IMG/VR virus record: IMGVR_UViG_3300032323_001392
Location: 1 to 40,048 of that record
Source: a virus
Length of the DNA: 40,048 bases
Strand: one strand, 5' to 3'
The translations under genes and the position numbers were made by a program. Positions 6,070-24,257 of the stretch are shown in pieces. Each line of letters begins with the position of its first letter. Position 1 is the first letter of the stretch. The notes beneath the pieces are model-generated. The model was not told the DNA's origin, did no database searches, and saw nothing but the letters and a program-made list of their open reading frames with translations.

Positions 6070-7215
6070 TCAAGGTTTGTCAGATGTAAGCACATCTTTC
6101 TTAACAAACCCTTGCTTGCCGTCTCTGGCCTTAATCTTTACCCAATCCTTGTGATGTTCTACAACTTCAACTTCTAGTCCTGGTCCGAAAAACCACACAC
6201 GAGTGCTTTTTTCATCGTGTGTTTTATTCACATAAAGTCCGTGTTTCAAATACATTACTGCGGACTGTTTAACTTCTGCCTTTGGTTCTGGCTTCTTTTG
6301 ATCTGCTGTTGGACTCGCTTCTCCATTATCCTTTTGCGGAACAGTTGTGCTAATAGGTTTGACATCATCTTTTTTCTCCTCTACTTTAGGCAATTCTACA
6401 GGCTGTATAGGAACTGGTGGTGCGTCTTGTTTGTAGTCCCAGATGCCTTTGGCCTTGCCTTCTTTGATTAACTCTACTACTCCCATCTCTACGGCTGCTT
6501 TCACAGCATAAGTTCCTGGTTCATTTATAGTTAATCCTGCTTCAGCTTCGAACGCTTTAGTACCCATATCAAAGAATTTCAGAGCAGATATAGAATCTGC
6601 ACTGCTTAAAATAGTTTTCTGTACAGTGACACTGATCAACACTTTACCAGTGTTTACTGATATCGCACGTAAACTTACTGTTACAGTATCTTGAGTCCAT
6701 TGTGTCTGTTTACCGATGCCTAAAAATCTATGTCCCATCCCGCCACTGTTTACACTAGAATCGTAGCCGATGATTCCACCTTCTACAATTATTCCTGCAA
6801 ACTGCATAGGCATCAGCGGTTTGGCATTGTTGCCTTCGTAGGCTTCACGCATCTGACGTATGATCAATCGTTCTTTAGTTAGATTGTCTATGCCCACACG
6901 TTCAACCACTTCAAACCATTGTCCACGACCTACATCCTGTAGAGCTTTGATCAAGAATGTTTCTGCGCCCTGTGTAACAGCCATTGACAAACTGGCTACG
7001 TTGGCCTGTGGACGGCGCTGTCCTGTTTTGTCTTGAAAACTATATACTGCCACACTCAAAGGTTTGCCTGCTGCGGGTGGCGGCACAGCATCAAATTCTT
7101 TTTTCATCATTGTGCCAGTCACAGTGGGTTTAGTTTCTGTGACACCTGTGCTTTGGAGTATAGCACATCCACTGGTTAATGACATCAAGAGGGTGATCAA
7201 TAACAGTTTTTTCAT
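6070..7215 (-). CDS. csgG: CsgG curli secretion pore lipoprotein with C-terminal SH3 domain
   Basis: 381 residues. A lipoprotein signal (MKKLLLITLLMSLTSGC, lipobox Cys17) precedes a full CsgG domain (about 45-265) with family hallmarks: VAVYSFQDKTGQRRP, FEVVERVGIDNLTKERLIIRQ, IIVEGGIIGYDSSVNSGG, then VTVSLRAISVNTGKVL. Known CsgG forms a nonameric outer-membrane channel for unfolded curli subunits. After a Pro/Lys-rich linker (about 270-315) there is an added SH3b-like domain (MYLKHGLYVNKTHDEKS through DWVKIKARDGKQGFV), absent from E. coli CsgG and possibly peptidoglycan- or protein-binding. It starts 1 base after csgF and leads the fibre genes. No csgE is seen nearby. Confidence 0.93.
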   Translation of the reverse strand: MKKLLLITLLMSLTSGCAILQSTGVTETKPTVTGTMMKKEFDAVPPPAAGKPLSVAVYSFQDKTGQRRPQANVASLSMAVTQGAETFLIKALQDVGRGQWFEVVERVGIDNLTKERLIIRQMREAYEGNNAKPLMPMQFAGIIVEGGIIGYDSSVNSGGMGHRFLGIGKQTQWTQDTVTVSLRAISVNTGKVLISVTVQKTILSSADSISALKFFDMGTKAFEAEAGLTINEPGTYAVKAAVEMGVVELIKEGKAKGIWDYKQDAPPVPIQPVELPKVEEKKDDVKPISTTVPQKDNGEASPTADQKKPEPKAEVKQSAVMYLKHGLYVNKTHDEKSTRVWFFGPGLEVEVVEHHKDWVKIKARDGKQGFVKKDVLTSDKP

Positions 7216-9290: not shown

Positions 9291-9972
9291 GTATCTCAGG
9301 GAACAGGCATTCTTGTATAAAATGCTGTACATCGTCCTCAGATAGCCCTAAACTAACCATTACACGTGGTGTATGGGGGTTACATTTCTGATTCTGAGCA
9401 TAGTAATTCTGCTCAAATGTGGTATCGGGAACTGTGTTATTGGTTTCTGCTACTGTACTGAGATAGTGCGAGATTGTAGTTTTAGCAAGATTTATGATCT
9501 GCTCTAGTTCTGCTTCATCGCTGACATTACCCGCAGCTACCATGCTCTTGCTGAATATGTTAGTGGCCCATTCTGGAAGAGCACGTTCTTTGCGCCATTC
9601 TAGTTTAGCAACTTCGTCAGCAAACCAATCCATCATAGGATGCTCTGGGTCACCTGCTTTTGAATAATCGTGGAAACAGCCAGTGATCTTGTTCTTGCCA
9701 GCAATAACATCAAAACCGTAAATTGGAGCAGGATTATGCGTGTGTGGGAAGATGCAACAATGCATCATCCAAAGACCTTTTGTTAGCCTAGCATCAACGA
9801 CATCAACGTGGGCCCTGCGATACTTGTCACTAGTCCATACACGATTAACCCAACCAGGCTGATTAAAACGATCCATTCCAGGTTCGAAGACTTCGACCCC
9901 AGTTTGCTCAAACGATTCTTCGAGTAGTTGTTGTATTTCAATTAGGGTATCCCAAACTTTACTGTCCGTCAT
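9286..9972 (-). CDS. pcyX: Ferredoxin-dependent bilin reductase (PcyA/PcyX-like)
   Basis: 228 residues from the ATG at 9972. The family core is clear: HVDVVDAR, WMMHCCIFPHTHNPAPIYGFDVIAG, then PEWATNIFSKSM, QNYYAQNQKCN and a C-terminal HFIQECLFPEI. By hand alignment to cyanobacterial PcyA, His88 (in MHC) and Asp105 (in GFD) are kept and Glu76 is replaced by Asp (HVD). These enzymes reduce biliverdin to phycobilins with electrons from ferredoxin. Similarity to PcyA with an altered Glu76 fits the phage-type PcyX, reported to make phycoerythrobilin; the product here is inferred. The start overlaps the heme oxygenase stop by 14 bases, so the two are co-translated. No ferredoxin gene is seen in the window. 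Confidence 0.85.
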   Translation of the reverse strand: MTDSKVWDTLIEIQQLLEESFEQTGVEVFEPGMDRFNQPGWVNRVWTSDKYRRAHVDVVDARLTKGLWMMHCCIFPHTHNPAPIYGFDVIAGKNKITGCFHDYSKAGDPEHPMMDWFADEVAKLEWRKERALPEWATNIFSKSMVAAGNVSDEAELEQIINLAKTTISHYLSTVAETNNTVPDTTFEQNYYAQNQKCNPHTPRVMVSLGLSEDDVQHFIQECLFPEIR

Positions 9973-10504
9973 ATAGATCACGCATCATCCTAATAGCATA
10001 TTCAAATGCTACACGAGCTTCGTCGCCTAAATCATCTGTAAGTATAGTACGAATAGAGGCTTTCATAGCATCTGCATTTTCAAAGTCGTAGAACTTGCCA
10101 CTTGAAATATGTGCTACCTGCTTCTTAATGATTTGGCCACCGAATAAGTCGCCCATATGACGGCAATATAAATGCGCCTTGATAAGATGTTTACGTTCTG
10201 GATCATTGCCTAATTTGTGTAGGTATATTTGGTATTCTAATGTTGCAGGAGTTAGATAGAGATATCTACCATCATCTAATTCTATAAAGTCTGCGTAGAT
10301 TGCTTTTAGTCTTGGCAGGTCTGGCATCGTATCAAGGAATCCTTGACGTTTACAATACCATTCGATTGGGTCGTAAATTGCCAGCATATTGTAAAGATAG
10401 TTTACATATTTCTTGCCGCCAATTTTGCCGCTAAGTAACATCTTAGCGAATTCTGTTTTTTCTGCTTCGTGATGCAGGTCTTGGGTGATCTCTTTTAAAC
10501 TCAT
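9959..10504 (-). CDS. ho1: Heme oxygenase
   Basis: 181 residues, a compact form of the family (cyanobacterial HO1 is about 240). The proximal heme ligand is His11 in QDLHHEAEKTEFA. The distal helix is HLYCRHMGDLFGGQIIKK, matching the R-x-x-G-D-L-x-G-G-Q signature. It opens heme to biliverdin, CO and iron using ferredoxin-type electrons, making the substrate for the reductase that follows. The start overlaps the clpS stop as TAATG. The operon order is clpS, heme oxygenase, bilin reductase. Cyanophages carry a comparable ho1-pebS pair; a heterotroph phage using it is less obvious. Confidence 0.93.
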   Translation of the reverse strand: MSLKEITQDLHHEAEKTEFAKMLLSGKIGGKKYVNYLYNMLAIYDPIEWYCKRQGFLDTMPDLPRLKAIYADFIELDDGRYLYLTPATLEYQIYLHKLGNDPERKHLIKAHLYCRHMGDLFGGQIIKKQVAHISSGKFYDFENADAMKASIRTILTDDLGDEARVAFEYAIRMMRDLYDGQ

Positions 10505-10848: not shown

Positions 10849-10877
10849 ATTATACTACTTAACATCAACAATGTCAA
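10849..10877 (-). promoter_or_regulatory. Consensus sigma-70 promoter for clpS-ho1-pcyX
   Basis: TTGACA (10872-10877), 17-base spacer, TATAAT (10849-10854) on the minus strand. Both boxes are perfect matches. It lies across the end of hsp20. Confidence 0.9.
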
Positions 10878-11286
10878 TGATTTTTGGCTTAGCAGATTCT
10901 GGAATGTTGCGTACCAATTTAACAATCAACATGCCGTTTTTAATTTCTGCACCCTCAACTTCAATGTGCTCGGCAAGCGGAAACTCACGAGCAAAGTCTC
11001 TAGTGGCAAGACCACGGTGTAGATATTGAATATCATCGTAGTCAGTGATATTGCTTTCGCCTTTGATTACCAGCACATTGCTTTCCACTGTTACTGAAAT
11101 TTCTGATTTATCAAATCCTGTCACTGCTAACTGTATCTCATACTGATTTTCACCAGTCTTAATAATGTTGTGTGGAGGATAGTTGTTAGACACTTGGTTA
11201 GCGAAACGGCGCTCCATTGTGTCAAACATTGTGTCAAAGCCAATTAGGGCTCGATTTAGTGCGTCTAGTCTTGATAGTTGATTCAT
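10855..11286 (-). CDS. Small heat-shock protein (Hsp20/IbpA-like)
   Basis: 143 residues. N-terminal region RALIGFDTMFDTMERRF as in IbpA-type proteins. The alpha-crystallin domain covers about 38-130: YPPHNIIKTGENQYEIQLAVTGF, VLVIKGE, LHRGLATRDFAREFPLAEHIEV (with the A-x-x-x-F-x-R-x-F-x-L pattern), then GMLIVKLVRNIP. The C-terminal PKIIDI carries the I-x-I motif used in oligomer assembly. It holds unfolding proteins for DnaK refolding. It follows dnaK and shares an 18-base leader identical to dnaK's, so the two are probably regulated together. Confidence 0.93.
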   Translation of the reverse strand: MNQLSRLDALNRALIGFDTMFDTMERRFANQVSNNYPPHNIIKTGENQYEIQLAVTGFDKSEISVTVESNVLVIKGESNITDYDDIQYLHRGLATRDFAREFPLAEHIEVEGAEIKNGMLIVKLVRNIPESAKPKIIDIVDVK

Positions 11287-11347: not shown

Positions 11348-13249
11348 TTAGTCTTTCTTCTCTTCAAAAGTAGCGTCGACTACATCTTCCTGTGCAGGTT
11401 GTGGTTGAGCTTCAGCTTGTGCTGCCGCCTGTTCCTTGGCCTGCTTTTTCTCTAACAATGTTTTCATTGCAGGGAAAACCTTATTGAGCTCTTCTGTGAT
11501 CTTTTCAGCATCATCACCTTTAGCTGCTGTTTCAACTGCGGTGATAACTGATTCTATCTCAGAGATCTCTGTTTCTGTAAGTTCTGATCTAAATTCTTCT
11601 AGATCCTTTTTAACTTCGTGTACCTGTGCTTCTGCTGAATTTCGTGTTTCGATCAGTGTACGAGCTTTCTTATCTGATTCAGCATTAGCTTCTGCTTCGT
11701 CTATCATCTTTTTAATTTCGTCTTCAGTTAAGCCTGAATTAGATTTGATAGTGATTTTATTTTCTTTTCCTGTGCTTTTGTCTTTAGCTGAGATATGCAT
11801 GATACCGTTGGCATCAATGTCGAAGGTAACTTCAATTTGTGGCATACCACGACGTGCTGGAGCGATACCATCTAGCTTGAATTCGCCAAGCATCTTGTTA
11901 TATTGTACAAGTTCACGTTCACCTTGGAATACCTTGATATCCACTGCTGGTTGATTGTCGTCAGCTGTAGAGAATGTTTGGCTAGCCTTGGTCGGAATCG
12001 TTGTGTTCTTTTGAATCAACTTGCTCATTACACCGCCAAGTGTTTCAATACCTAGGCTTAGAGGAGTAACGTCTAGCAATAGAACGTCTTTGCGATCGCC
12101 ACCTAGCACAGCACCTTGAATTGCCGCACCTACAGCAACAGCTTCATCTGGGTTAACGTCTTTGCGTGGTGCTTTACCGAATAGTTTTTCAACTTCTTCT
12201 TGTACCTTAGGCATACGTGTTTGACCACCAACTAAGATGACTTCGTCGATGTCATCTTTAGTTACACCTGCATCTTTAAGAGCAGTACGGCAAGGGTCTA
12301 AGGAACGTTGGATTAAGTCATCTACTAGGCTTTCAAATTTTGCCTTGGTTAACTTAACATTTAAATGTTTAGGACCACTTGCATCTGCAGTGATATATGG
12401 TAGGTTAACATCTGTTTGTGCAGAGCTAGACAATTCAATCTTTGCTTTTTCAGCAGATTCTTTTAAGCGTTGTAGAGCCAGTGTGTCATTCTTTAGATCG
12501 ACGCCATTTTCTTTCTTAAATTCTTCAACCAAGTAATCCATAATACGTTGGTCAAAGTCTTCACCACCTAAGAATGTGTCGCCGTTTGTTGATAATACTT
12601 CAATCTGTTTCTCGCCGTCGACGTTGGCGATTTCAATGATGGATACGTCAAACGTACCACCTCCTAAGTCATACACAGCAATCTTGCGATCTACTTTATC
12701 TTGCTTATCAACACCATAAGCAAGAGCAGCAGCAGTAGGCTCATTAATAATACGCAATACTTCCAAGCCTGCGATTTTTCCAGCATCCTTAGTTGCTTGT
12801 CTTTGGCTGTCGTTGAAGTACGCTGGGACTGTGATAACTGCTTGAGTAACTTCCTCACCTAAATAGTCCTCTGCTGTCTTTTTCATTTTACGCAAGACTT
12901 CAGCTGACACCTGCGGTGGTGCTAATTCTTTACCTTGTGCTTCAATCCAGGCATCACCATTTGATGCTTCTGTGATCTTATACGGCATAAGGTCAATATC
13001 TTTTTGTACTGCTTGTTCTTTGAATTTACGACCAATTAATCGCTTGCTTGCGTAAATGGTGTTTTTAGCGTTAGTAACAGCCTGACGTTTAGCAGGAGCA
13101 CCAACAAGGATTTCATCTGAAGTGTAAGCAACGATACTAGGTGTAGTACGAGCGCCTTCTGAGTTTTCAATAACTTTGGATTTGCCGCCTTCAATAACAG
13201 CGACACATGAGTTTGTTGTACCTAAATCGATACCGATGATCTTAGACAT
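11348..13249 (-). CDS. dnaK: Full-length DnaK (Hsp70) chaperone
   Basis: 633 residues, the usual bacterial length. ATPase domain: [13 protein letters not shown] at the N-terminus, [60 protein letters not shown]. The interdomain linker [15 protein letters not shown] is intact. The substrate-binding domain follows ([19 protein letters not shown]), then a helical lid and a charged tail ending [12 protein letters not shown], as in proteobacterial DnaK. All key parts are present, so it should be an active ATP-driven chaperone. No dnaJ or grpE is in the window, so it must use host co-chaperones or ones encoded elsewhere. A late promoter (13331-13338) and a hairpin-rich leader precede it. Confidence 0.97.
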
Positions 13250-20916: not shown

Positions 20917-20945
20917 ATTGTAACATCGTTTGAAATCGTAGTCAA
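20917..20945 (-). promoter_or_regulatory. Sigma-70 promoter for the oxygenase/SGNH genes
   Basis: TTGACT (20940-20945), 17-base spacer, TACAAT (20917-20922). The -35 box follows directly on the upstream terminator hairpin. Confidence 0.85.
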
Positions 20946-20948
20946 GAG

Positions 20949-20970
20949 AATGCCCACCGAAGTGGGCATT
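20949..20970 (-). terminator. TTCG-loop terminator after the small secreted protein
   Basis: AATGCCCAC-TTCG-GTGGGCATT on the minus strand. The T run is poor (ATTCTCTTG), and it abuts the next promoter. Confidence 0.75.
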
Positions 20971-20975
20971 TTGGA

Positions 20976-21290
20976 TTAACCTAAGAAACGATATGCATTC
21001 ATGGCAGATACCTGTGCTTTTTGGCATAGGTCATTTTTCTGAGTCACTGCTGAACCAACTAGATCCTCACCTTTAGTGTGGACTTTACTCAAAGCTTCAA
21101 CCACTTGTGATTGTGCTTTACAAGCTAGATCGTAATCGCCTTTTTTCACTGCTGTGACACTTAGGTCTGACAAGCGTGTAGCACGTTCGAGTTCTACTTG
21201 TTTAGAATTAGATGTTAGGTATGTTGCTGATGCTACTGTGATTGAGGCAAATGCGATCGCCAGGGATGCTAAAACTACTGATTTCTTCAT
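20976..21290 (-). CDS. Small secreted protein
   Basis: 104 residues. Signal peptide MKKSVVLASLAIAFASITVASA, then a helical mature domain with two Cys (DLACKAQSQ and NDLCQKAQ) that could form a disulfide in the periplasm. No family is recognised. It is a single-gene unit with its own sigma-70 promoter, a consensus late promoter and its own terminator, which suggests high expression throughout infection. It lies between pqqA and the oxygenases. Confidence 0.75.
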   Translation of the reverse strand: MKKSVVLASLAIAFASITVASATYLTSNSKQVELERATRLSDLSVTAVKKGDYDLACKAQSQVVEALSKVHTKGEDLVGSAVTQKNDLCQKAQVSAMNAYRFLG

Positions 21291-21357: not shown

Positions 21358-21386
21358 AGCATATATTACATTTTGACTTTTGTCAA
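21358..21386 (-). promoter_or_regulatory. Sigma-70 promoter for the small secreted protein
   Basis: Perfect TTGACA (21381-21386), 17-base spacer, TATGCT (21358-21363). It follows directly on the pqqA terminator. Confidence 0.75.
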
Positions 21387-21390
21387 GAGA

Positions 21391-21412
21391 AAGCCCCACC
21401 GAAGTAGGGCTT
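21391..21412 (-). terminator. TTCG-loop terminator after pqqA
   Basis: AAGCCCTAC-TTCG-GTGGGGCTT on the minus strand (with one G-T pair). It is the same type as at 20949-20970 and the tmRNA terminator. Confidence 0.75.
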
Positions 21413-21466
21413 CTTTTTTCATTTTGAACTTTATGAGTTCAGTTTGAAGTTATGTAGAACGAACAA

Positions 21467-21538
21467 TTACTTGTTCATTACATACATAGTTACTTCAAAA
21501 CCGAAACGCATTTCAGTTGCTGCTGGTTTTGTCCACAT
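21467..21538 (-). CDS. pqqA: PqqA, precursor peptide of the cofactor PQQ
   Basis: 23 residues, too short for usual gene finders. It begins MWTKPAATEMRFGF and continues EVTMYVMNK. The family pattern MWTKP...R.GFEVTMY is complete, with the two residues that become PQQ, Glu15 and Tyr19, in the E-x-x-x-Y spacing. PqqA is made on ribosomes, bound by PqqD and cross-linked by PqqE; no other pqq gene is seen here, so the host pathway would process it. PQQ serves methanol and other quinoprotein dehydrogenases in the periplasm. The ATG has an excellent ribosome site (GAGGAG, 8-base spacing), a leader of about 130 bases and its own terminator. This points to a methylotrophic host. Confidence 0.93.
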   Translation of the reverse strand: MWTKPAATEMRFGFEVTMYVMNK

Positions 21539-21670
21539 AGTATTTCTCCTCGTTTATAAAAATGTTACCATTTACAAACTCATGTCAGTGGAGATATCGA
21601 TCTTTTGATAAAGGTCCACCTTGAGGCCTATTAGTACTACGGCAACGATTGTCTGTTGTCCTTAATACTT
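21539..21670 (-). promoter_or_regulatory. Structured 5' leader of pqqA
   Basis: About 130 bases between the inferred transcription start and the ATG. Next to the ribosome site is a hairpin GTTTGTAAATG/CATTTTTATAAAC (21556-21583 region, GTAA loop). Further upstream GTGGA/TCCAC encloses TATC/GATA. No known riboswitch is recognised. Confidence 0.4.
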
Positions 21671-21677
21671 ATATAAT

Positions 21678-21706
21678 ATTATATGACAAAACCACCTAAA
21701 AGTCAT
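21678..21706 (-). promoter_or_regulatory. Probable sigma-70 promoter of pqqA (weak -35)
   Basis: Perfect TATAAT at 21678-21683; the -35 box at 17 bases is ATGACT (21701-21706), a poor match. Confidence 0.5.
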
Positions 21707-21736
21707 ACGTAAAATCATTAATGACCGCTAGTGATC

Positions 21737-23669: not shown

Positions 23670-23702
23670 CGATAACCGTAGGTAAATGTGGGCAAATCCA
23701 AT

Positions 23703-23728
23703 AAAAAAGGCCACCGAAGTGACCTTTT
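23703..23728 (-). terminator. Intrinsic terminator of the tmRNA gene
   Basis: AAAAGGTCAC-TTCG-GTGGCCTTTTTT on the minus strand, a strong hairpin with a T run. Confidence 0.92.
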
Positions 23729-23729
23729 G

Positions 23730-24048
23730 CTATTTTGGGTTACAAGGTATAACTACCCCGGACCTGCTGTTTTTTAGGCAGCTAGAGCAACTTTGCTTTT
23801 ACCAGAAACTGTGTTTCCAGTGAAGCTCATTGCTGTGAAGTCAAATGTATCTGCGTTTGCATTTACGTTTTTTGCTTGGATTACGTCCATCGCCTCTCGT
23901 GTTGCCGTCTCTACTATCTCACGCTGTCGAAACCTGGTCACCCCCACCCAAATATACTTTTCAATACACTTGGGTGGAGGTGGGCGGAATCGAACCGCCG
24001 TCCAACATGCCTTCGCTTTGAAGGGATTACAACAATTCTATTATTTAC
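23730..24048 (-). ncRNA. ssrA: Circularly permuted (two-piece) tmRNA
   Basis: Read on the minus strand, the acceptor piece comes first: an arm CCTTC/GAAGG, then CATGTTG, then the T arm GGCGGTTCGATTCCGCC and acceptor strand CACCTCC (23976-23982), discriminator A and CCC. After an intervening loop comes the coding piece, starting GGGGGTG (23939-23945) and continuing ACCAGGTTTCGACAGCGTG. The acceptor strands pair 7 of 7, CAGCGTG pairs with CATGTTG as P2, and the linker extends the acceptor helix to about 18 bp. The tag frame is at 23774-23860. tmRNA with SmpB rescues stalled ribosomes. The outer ends are approximate; the terminal A of CCA is not encoded. It is downstream of cspA. Confidence 0.92.
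23774..23860 (-). other. tmRNA tag-encoding frame (28 residues)
   Basis: From resume codon GCA the tag begins ANADTFDFTAMSF and ends GKSKVALAA before TAA. The end VALAA is the usual protease-recognition end. The resume site is chosen by the run AAAAAACGTAAATGCAAAC, like other tmRNAs. Most tags are about 8-15 residues, so this one is long. Confidence 0.8.
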
Positions 24049-24053
24049 CCAAC

Positions 24054-24257
24054 TTACGCTGGATAAATGTTTGCTGCCTGCTTGCCTTTTTGTCCTTGCA
24101 CTACATCAAACGTTACTGCTTGATTTTCCTGTAGAACTTTGAAGCCTGAGCTTTGTATTGCTGAGTAATGAGCAAATAAATCCTCACCACCGTTGTCTGG
24201 AGTAATAAATCCAAAACCTTTGGTTTCATTAAACCATTTTACTTTTCCTGTTGCCAT
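24054..24257 (-). CDS. cspA: Cold-shock protein (CspA family)
   Basis: 67 residues, the standard size. RNP1 [11 protein letters not shown] and RNP2 LFAHYSAIQ (a change from the usual VFVHFSAI) lie in the single OB-fold, with [14 protein letters not shown] at the N-terminus and [18 protein letters not shown] at the end. It binds single-stranded RNA or DNA and melts mRNA structure, and could aid translation of structured or leaderless messages. It is just upstream of the tmRNA on the same strand and may be co-transcribed. Confidence 0.95.

Follow-up and report, generated by a model that had tools for sequence, protein, structure and literature searches.

The stretch of DNA analyzed here (hereafter the window) is a 40,048-base virus record of IMG/VR, without end repeats, and it carries a 23-codon gene for PqqA, the precursor peptide of the cofactor pyrroloquinoline quinone (PQQ). 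This pqqA gene lies on the minus strand (21538 to 21467, stop codon included) and encodes MWTKPAATEMRFGFEVTMYVMNK. We consider it likely that this is a genuine stand-alone phage gene which feeds the enzymes of the host and whose translation is controlled by its leader RNA. An earlier note, made from the sequence of the window alone, had left open whether phage pqqA was new; it is already known, with one earlier clear mention (PMC7678222), and what is new here is its breadth together with its solitary, conserved and apparently regulated form. The structured leader is the larger finding and the part deserving follow-up.

The window peptide scores 42.4 bits against Pfam PF08042 (PqqA; E 6e-11, residues 1–19) and 40.4 bits against the NCBIfam equivalog TIGR02107, exceeding both curated cut-offs (21.1 and 20 bits, respectively) twofold. 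The full PqqA pattern reported in the earlier note is thereby borne out, with Glu15 and Tyr19 (E-x3-Y, the residues that become PQQ) both present. No PHROG family matches the peptide, the profile search of the record found this single PqqA only, and the plus-strand frame at the same site reads LLVHYIHS...; the open reading frame described earlier is real, but its strand, which had gone unstated, is the minus strand. A ribosome site and a terminator of its own had also been claimed, and both are found: the Shine-Dalgarno sequence GAGGAG at 21551 to 21546 and a terminator-like stem-loop of the intrinsic type at 21413 to 21390 (both minus; −16.1 kcal/mol and z −3.6 for the latter). A predicted promoter, ATGACT-17-TATAAT (21706 to 21678, minus), agrees at 10 of 12 positions, with promoter matches in the region as a whole not above chance. 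With its own predicted promoter, leader, ribosome site and terminator-like stem-loop, the gene looks like a separate transcription unit.

It is clear that viruses of methanol-eating bacteria widely carry pqqA and that the gene is far commoner than recorded. A tblastn search of PqqA against 50,697 phage records gave 12 matches. Nine are records of isolated Methylophilales phages (Venkman, P19250A, MEP301, MEP401, MEP402 and four Melnitz strains); the others are an uncultured podovirus, whose peptide is identical, and two records that bear the label Acinetobacter phage. Of these two, the one inspected (CAKLQF020000010) looks chromosomal, as it carries ppk, pqqB, pqqC and pqqD as well as a radical SAM gene, and it was rejected as a case of phage pqqA. 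Viral relatives sought by DNA patterns in IMG/VR, a search for which the earlier note had called, amount to at least 120 contigs, and all 121 pattern matches are true PqqA frames with ribosome sites. As that note had expected of so short a gene, pqqA is unannotated in the isolate genomes read, and an antisense frame is annotated as a hypothetical protein in its place in Melnitz and in the podovirus (deposited phage genomes with such a frame are MZ577097, 76100–76195, and MW202481, 2067–2195). Venkman and the podovirus, compared over 8 kb, resemble each other in pqqA alone, so the gene may travel as a small cassette.

The second IMG/VR scan left positions 6–9, 15 and 19 of the peptide free, and it returned 132 frames, every one of them 23 amino acids long; 45 different peptides are encoded by 114 DNA sequences. 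All 132 keep Glu15 and Tyr19, while position 6 takes eight different residues. The ratio of nonsynonymous to synonymous substitution rates (dN/dS) is about 0.07 over the 114 distinct sequences and 0.13 when restricted to the codons that the pattern leaves free. We therefore rejected a chance open reading frame, given the profile score, the presence of the same kind of frame in more than 120 viral contigs and the strong purifying selection. Lys4 varies, with Gln in the host copies that stand behind the RNA element described below (L479–L488) and Thr in some phages (L467, L468, L474 and L293). The gene can also be interrupted: a group I intron of 231–278 nt splits the 23 codons within codon Phe14 in L494, L503, L506, L518, L519 and L521, and also in L515 and L524. 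This intron corresponds to RF00028 (62–65 bits in L503 and L515) and is too short for a typical homing endonuclease, and the exons, when joined, give an intact PqqA.

The leader of the window gene, whose presence had been recognized earlier but whose structured, switch-like nature had been missed, contains an RNA element that runs up to the start codon (21630 to 21536, minus) and scores 62.6 and 65.1 bits with covariance models R1 and R2. The leaders of the window and of contigs L017, L019, L036 and L078 share the succession CUCAA...GGAYYU...UCUCC...GA. Three scans of IMG/VR with leader patterns containing no part of pqqA gave 42, 22 and 63 contigs. Of the 42, 40 have pqqA immediately downstream; in one more the contig ends within pqqA, and in the last it ends before the gene is reached. 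The 22 comprise 18 followed by pqqA, one that is cut and three unrelated sequences. Among the 63, an intact pqqA follows in 50 (one of them a longer-headed variant), an intron-split pqqA in eight and a cut pqqA in two; two more are cut earlier, and one is unrelated. The element is thus found before pqqA, or cut at its expected place, in 42/42, 19/22 and 62/63 contigs.

Hosts carry the element as well. Model R1 finds it in 23 of 187 Methylophilaceae genomes (E below 1e-6, 50–62 bits), all of 0.7–1.4 Mb, while R2, among 399 genomes of the order, matches only G287 and G371, both of that small-genome host group. At each of the ten host loci read, the element reaches as far as the start codon of a pqqA gene encoding MWTQP(T/Q)ATEMRFGFEVTMYVCN(K/R), and about 200 nt later there follows a second pqqA, identical to that of the window. 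MEP402 is the sole isolate with the element among those tested (48.6 bits). A known riboswitch in the leader was rejected for want of a credible match in Rfam 15, where no family reaches its gathering score over the element and relaxed thresholds add nothing credible; nor did the literature searched contain a description of a pqqA RNA motif.

The structure of the leader covaries. RNAalifold places helices P1 and P2 around a conserved CUCAA/GANNUG internal loop in 29 distinct leaders, with 94% of the cells paired and a covariation of 0.509, compared with 0.226 ± 0.022 for shuffled alignments and at most 0.108 for slid ones. With hosts and further phages added (54 sequences), the covariation is 0.636 vs. 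0.247, and double changes occur in 10 of 11 pairs. In the window, all on the minus strand, the 5' strand of P2 lies at 21620 to 21615 and its partner at 21592 to 21587 (columns 11–16 with 44–49 of alignments A1 and A2), and the CUCAA of the internal loop, which is invariant in A1 and whose CUC is complementary to the Shine-Dalgarno site, lies at 21625 to 21621. A hairpin P3 of 9 pairs (GUUUGUAAA/UUUAUAAAC, 21579 to 21552, p 0.02 vs. shuffles) abuts the Shine-Dalgarno site and on its 5' side shares bases with the 3' strand of P1, and a similar hairpin is present in 10/10 host leaders read.

From these folds we infer switching, its direction and a ligand. In the hosts and the window clade, the 3' strand of P1 doubles as the 5' strand of a P3 of 8–11 pairs next to the ribosome site, and the predicted minimum-energy fold pairs CUC with the Shine-Dalgarno site (for the window, GAGGAG with CCUC at 21626–21623). 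Phages with a short leader, L438 for one, are predicted to pair the 3' P1 strand with the start-codon region instead, and P1 excludes both this pairing and P3. The predicted cost of opening the ribosome site and start codon has a mean of 4.4 kcal/mol for the free leader and 2.5 kcal/mol with P1/P2 formed (lower in 50 of 54), which points to an on-switch. We propose that the RNA would have one state in which P1 and P2 enclose the conserved internal loop and a competing state in which the 3' strand of P1 would be taken up by P3 (hosts and window clade) or by the start-codon region (short-leader phages), with CUC bound to the Shine-Dalgarno site in the hosts and window clade. Formation of P1 would free the ribosome site, so that a ligand or protein stabilizing P1 would turn translation on. 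As modeled, the leader looks like an uncatalogued candidate riboswitch, and translation of pqqA is probably under cis-acting RNA control in the window phage, in many others and in one small-genome host group. An anti-Shine-Dalgarno role of UCUCC is conceivable, but several members have not kept the motif.

Several points weigh against this reading of the leader. The window clade has two non-standard pairs among the five of P1 (3/5 standard), with P2 intact in the window. As the sequences are related to one another, the cells counted do not represent independent events; alignment A2 was fitted to the model structure; and the shared ribosome site and start codon supply part of the R1/R2 scores. 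Any forced helix ties up sequence, which biases the comparison of opening costs, and only a minority of the viral pqqA genes carry the RNA, with about 13 well-scoring cases among the first 120 contigs.

What the leader would respond to is a more tentative matter. A new riboswitch class dedicated to pqqA, shared by streamlined methylotrophs and their phages and sensing PQQ, an intermediate of PQQ or a different signal of methanol oxidation, seems possible to us at somewhat less than an even chance; if true, phages would in this way couple how much PqqA they make to the cofactor status of the cell they infect. Given the small size of the element, its one main internal loop that is conserved and the two alternative pairings close to the ribosome site, which fit protein control of a leader as well, a regulatory-protein site, or a temperature- or translation-sensing structure, is a serious contender for the same leader, if one we stop short of calling probable. 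However, a conserved asymmetric loop and mutually exclusive helices are typical of riboswitches, and since the element is common to phages and hosts, any binding protein must be a host protein kept across them. In either case the RNA is an uncatalogued regulatory candidate that covaries strongly and is associated with one gene, in hosts and phages alike; any ligand and effect are testable, and would bear on the control of PQQ supply in abundant aquatic methylotrophs.

One PqqA peptide is consumed for each PQQ made, and extra PqqA should therefore be useful to the host enzymes. The earlier note was right that no pqqBCDE lie near the gene, as none were found in the window record, which also has no PqqE match, but this is not a distinctive trait, being normal in small-genome hosts too. 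Each of 47 longer viral records has exactly one pqqA, and 0/47, complete isolate genomes included, have a PqqE over cut-off or a PQQ dehydrogenase, the latter being present in the hosts. Among Methylophilaceae genomes, 185 of 187 have pqqA, many with several copies, and in some (G503, G573 and others) up to 12 copies are found, mostly dispersed. Four other host genomes have one copy about 2 kb upstream of pqqE, whereas five genomes of about 1.3 Mb have no pqqA within 100 kb of pqqE; given these five and the many host copies, a solitary pqqA acting in trans is normal there, and pqqA dosage in hosts seems to be selected. The comparison with Methylophilales PqqA proposed earlier gave peptides 100% identical to that of the window in Methylophilaceae genomes G287, G371, G316 and G345, the gene itself sharing 67 of 72 bases with the G287 copy.

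With Glu15 and Tyr19 kept, a low dN/dS, no viral pqqE or PQQ dehydrogenase and solitary pqqA in hosts, the sequence comparisons make it most likely that phages supply extra PqqA substrate to the host enzymes. The phage gene would act as a stand-alone, separately transcribed auxiliary metabolic gene, its peptide would pass to host PqqD, PqqE, PqqB and PqqC, and PQQ, hence methanol dehydrogenase, would be kept supplied during infection. The logic is economical in that a single 23-codon gene would supply the consumed substrate of a multi-enzyme pathway, and it places a cofactor precursor peptide among the common, overlooked genes of methylotroph phages.

The reverse effect is conceivable, as PqqD can bind PqqA without processing it and Lys4 has become Thr in some phage copies: phage PqqA could be a decoy, keeping PqqD/PqqE busy and reducing the synthesis of PQQ in infection. 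We regard this as highly improbable, since the two residues that become PQQ never vary among the 132 frames, many phage peptides equal host ones, and Lys4 is also changed, to Gln, in the host copy behind the RNA. The high nucleotide identity to host copies noted above and the signs of movement between unrelated phages would fit a neutral passenger acquired by recombination with the host and of no benefit to the phage. The strength of purifying selection, the recurrence in different phage types, the structured leader and the retention of pqqA despite a group I intron whose removal restores an intact peptide make such a passenger highly improbable. An assembly artefact or host contamination of viral contigs, for which the chromosomal look of a record labelled Acinetobacter phage MD-2021a, with pqqBCD, might speak, is extremely improbable, as pqqA stands among phage genes in complete isolate genomes and adjoins AhpD in independent T4-like contigs, and the same leader recurs in contigs of the window clade.

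With regard to the setting of the gene in the window, the record contains tail-spike, baseplate/tail-lysozyme, endolysin, exonuclease and NrdA families (T4-like and other phage families) and on these grounds is not host chromosome, the origin that the earlier note had named as fatal to its proposal. It is a fragment of a T4-like phage, and Megablast of the window against named phages gave no match. Directly upstream of pqqA on the same strand lies an AhpD-like (CMD family) gene (22252 to 21737, minus), preceded by an AhpC-like peroxiredoxin gene (22791 to 22252, minus). The AhpD-pqqA pair recurs in other T4-like contigs, with a spacing of about 100 nt in several of them and 198 nt in the window.

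The interval between the two genes holds an element, TTAATGATTTTACGTATG (21721 to 21704, minus), associated with pqqA in T4-like phages. The core of the motif TTAATGATT(T/A)TNNGTATG occurs within 260 nt upstream of 26 viral pqqA genes, against 30 sites in all viral sequence read and none in the host sequence read. A host-type promoter before phage pqqA was rejected, as host leaders did not show the upstream element of the phages. In the form TTTAATGATTNTNNGTATG (window 21704–21721; L003, L017, L243, L254, L271, L274 and others) it stands almost solely before T4-like phage pqqA, and downstream of it come a −10-like box and then, in several phages, a 5' hairpin of variable sequence. At 20940–20985 and 21358–21413 the window has successive terminator-like stem-loops with ACTTCGGT, each closely followed by a promoter-like site, and because of this arrangement the neighboring genes look like separate transcription units. 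Elsewhere the window encodes a full-length DnaK (11348–13249), an Hsp20 (10855–11286), a heme oxygenase (9959–10504) and a CsgG with a C-terminal SH3-like domain (6070–7215), as well as a transfer-messenger RNA gene (23683–24064) that matches the betaproteobacterial and permuted Rfam models.

The closest precedent is a Lake Baikal virus population, VP_266, for which viral PqqA is reported in one sentence (Coutinho et al., 2020; PMC7678222). Like the present case, it concerns a PqqA precursor in a presumed methylotroph phage that is proposed as an auxiliary metabolic gene; unlike it, a viral methanol dehydrogenase was reported alongside and no RNA leader was described, whereas the 47 records here lack any PQQ dehydrogenase. 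Viral pqqA, pqqD and pqqE are also listed in PMC13188868. Compared with Methylophilaceae PqqA (PF08042, TIGR02107), the window copy has the same length, motif and an identical sequence, and solitary copies are usual in those hosts; it differs in being phage-encoded, apparently as its own transcription unit, and without pqqBCDE. The OM43 phages Venkman, MEP301, MEP401/402 and Melnitz and the Methylophilaceae phage P19250A all likewise carry pqqA, but there it is unannotated (publications on Melnitz, MEP301 and MEP401/402 do not mention it) and, among the isolates tested, MEP402 alone has the RNA element. A cyclic di-GMP riboswitch has been listed upstream of a PqqA gene in strain GP59 (PMC12530212, Table 4), which resembles our element in its position but belongs to a known Rfam class. 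Riboswitches are described in streamlined marine bacteria and their phages, among them the glutamine riboswitch of Melnitz (PMC9004378); this too is a cis-regulatory RNA in a phage of the same host group, while its structure, its gene and presumably its ligand are different.
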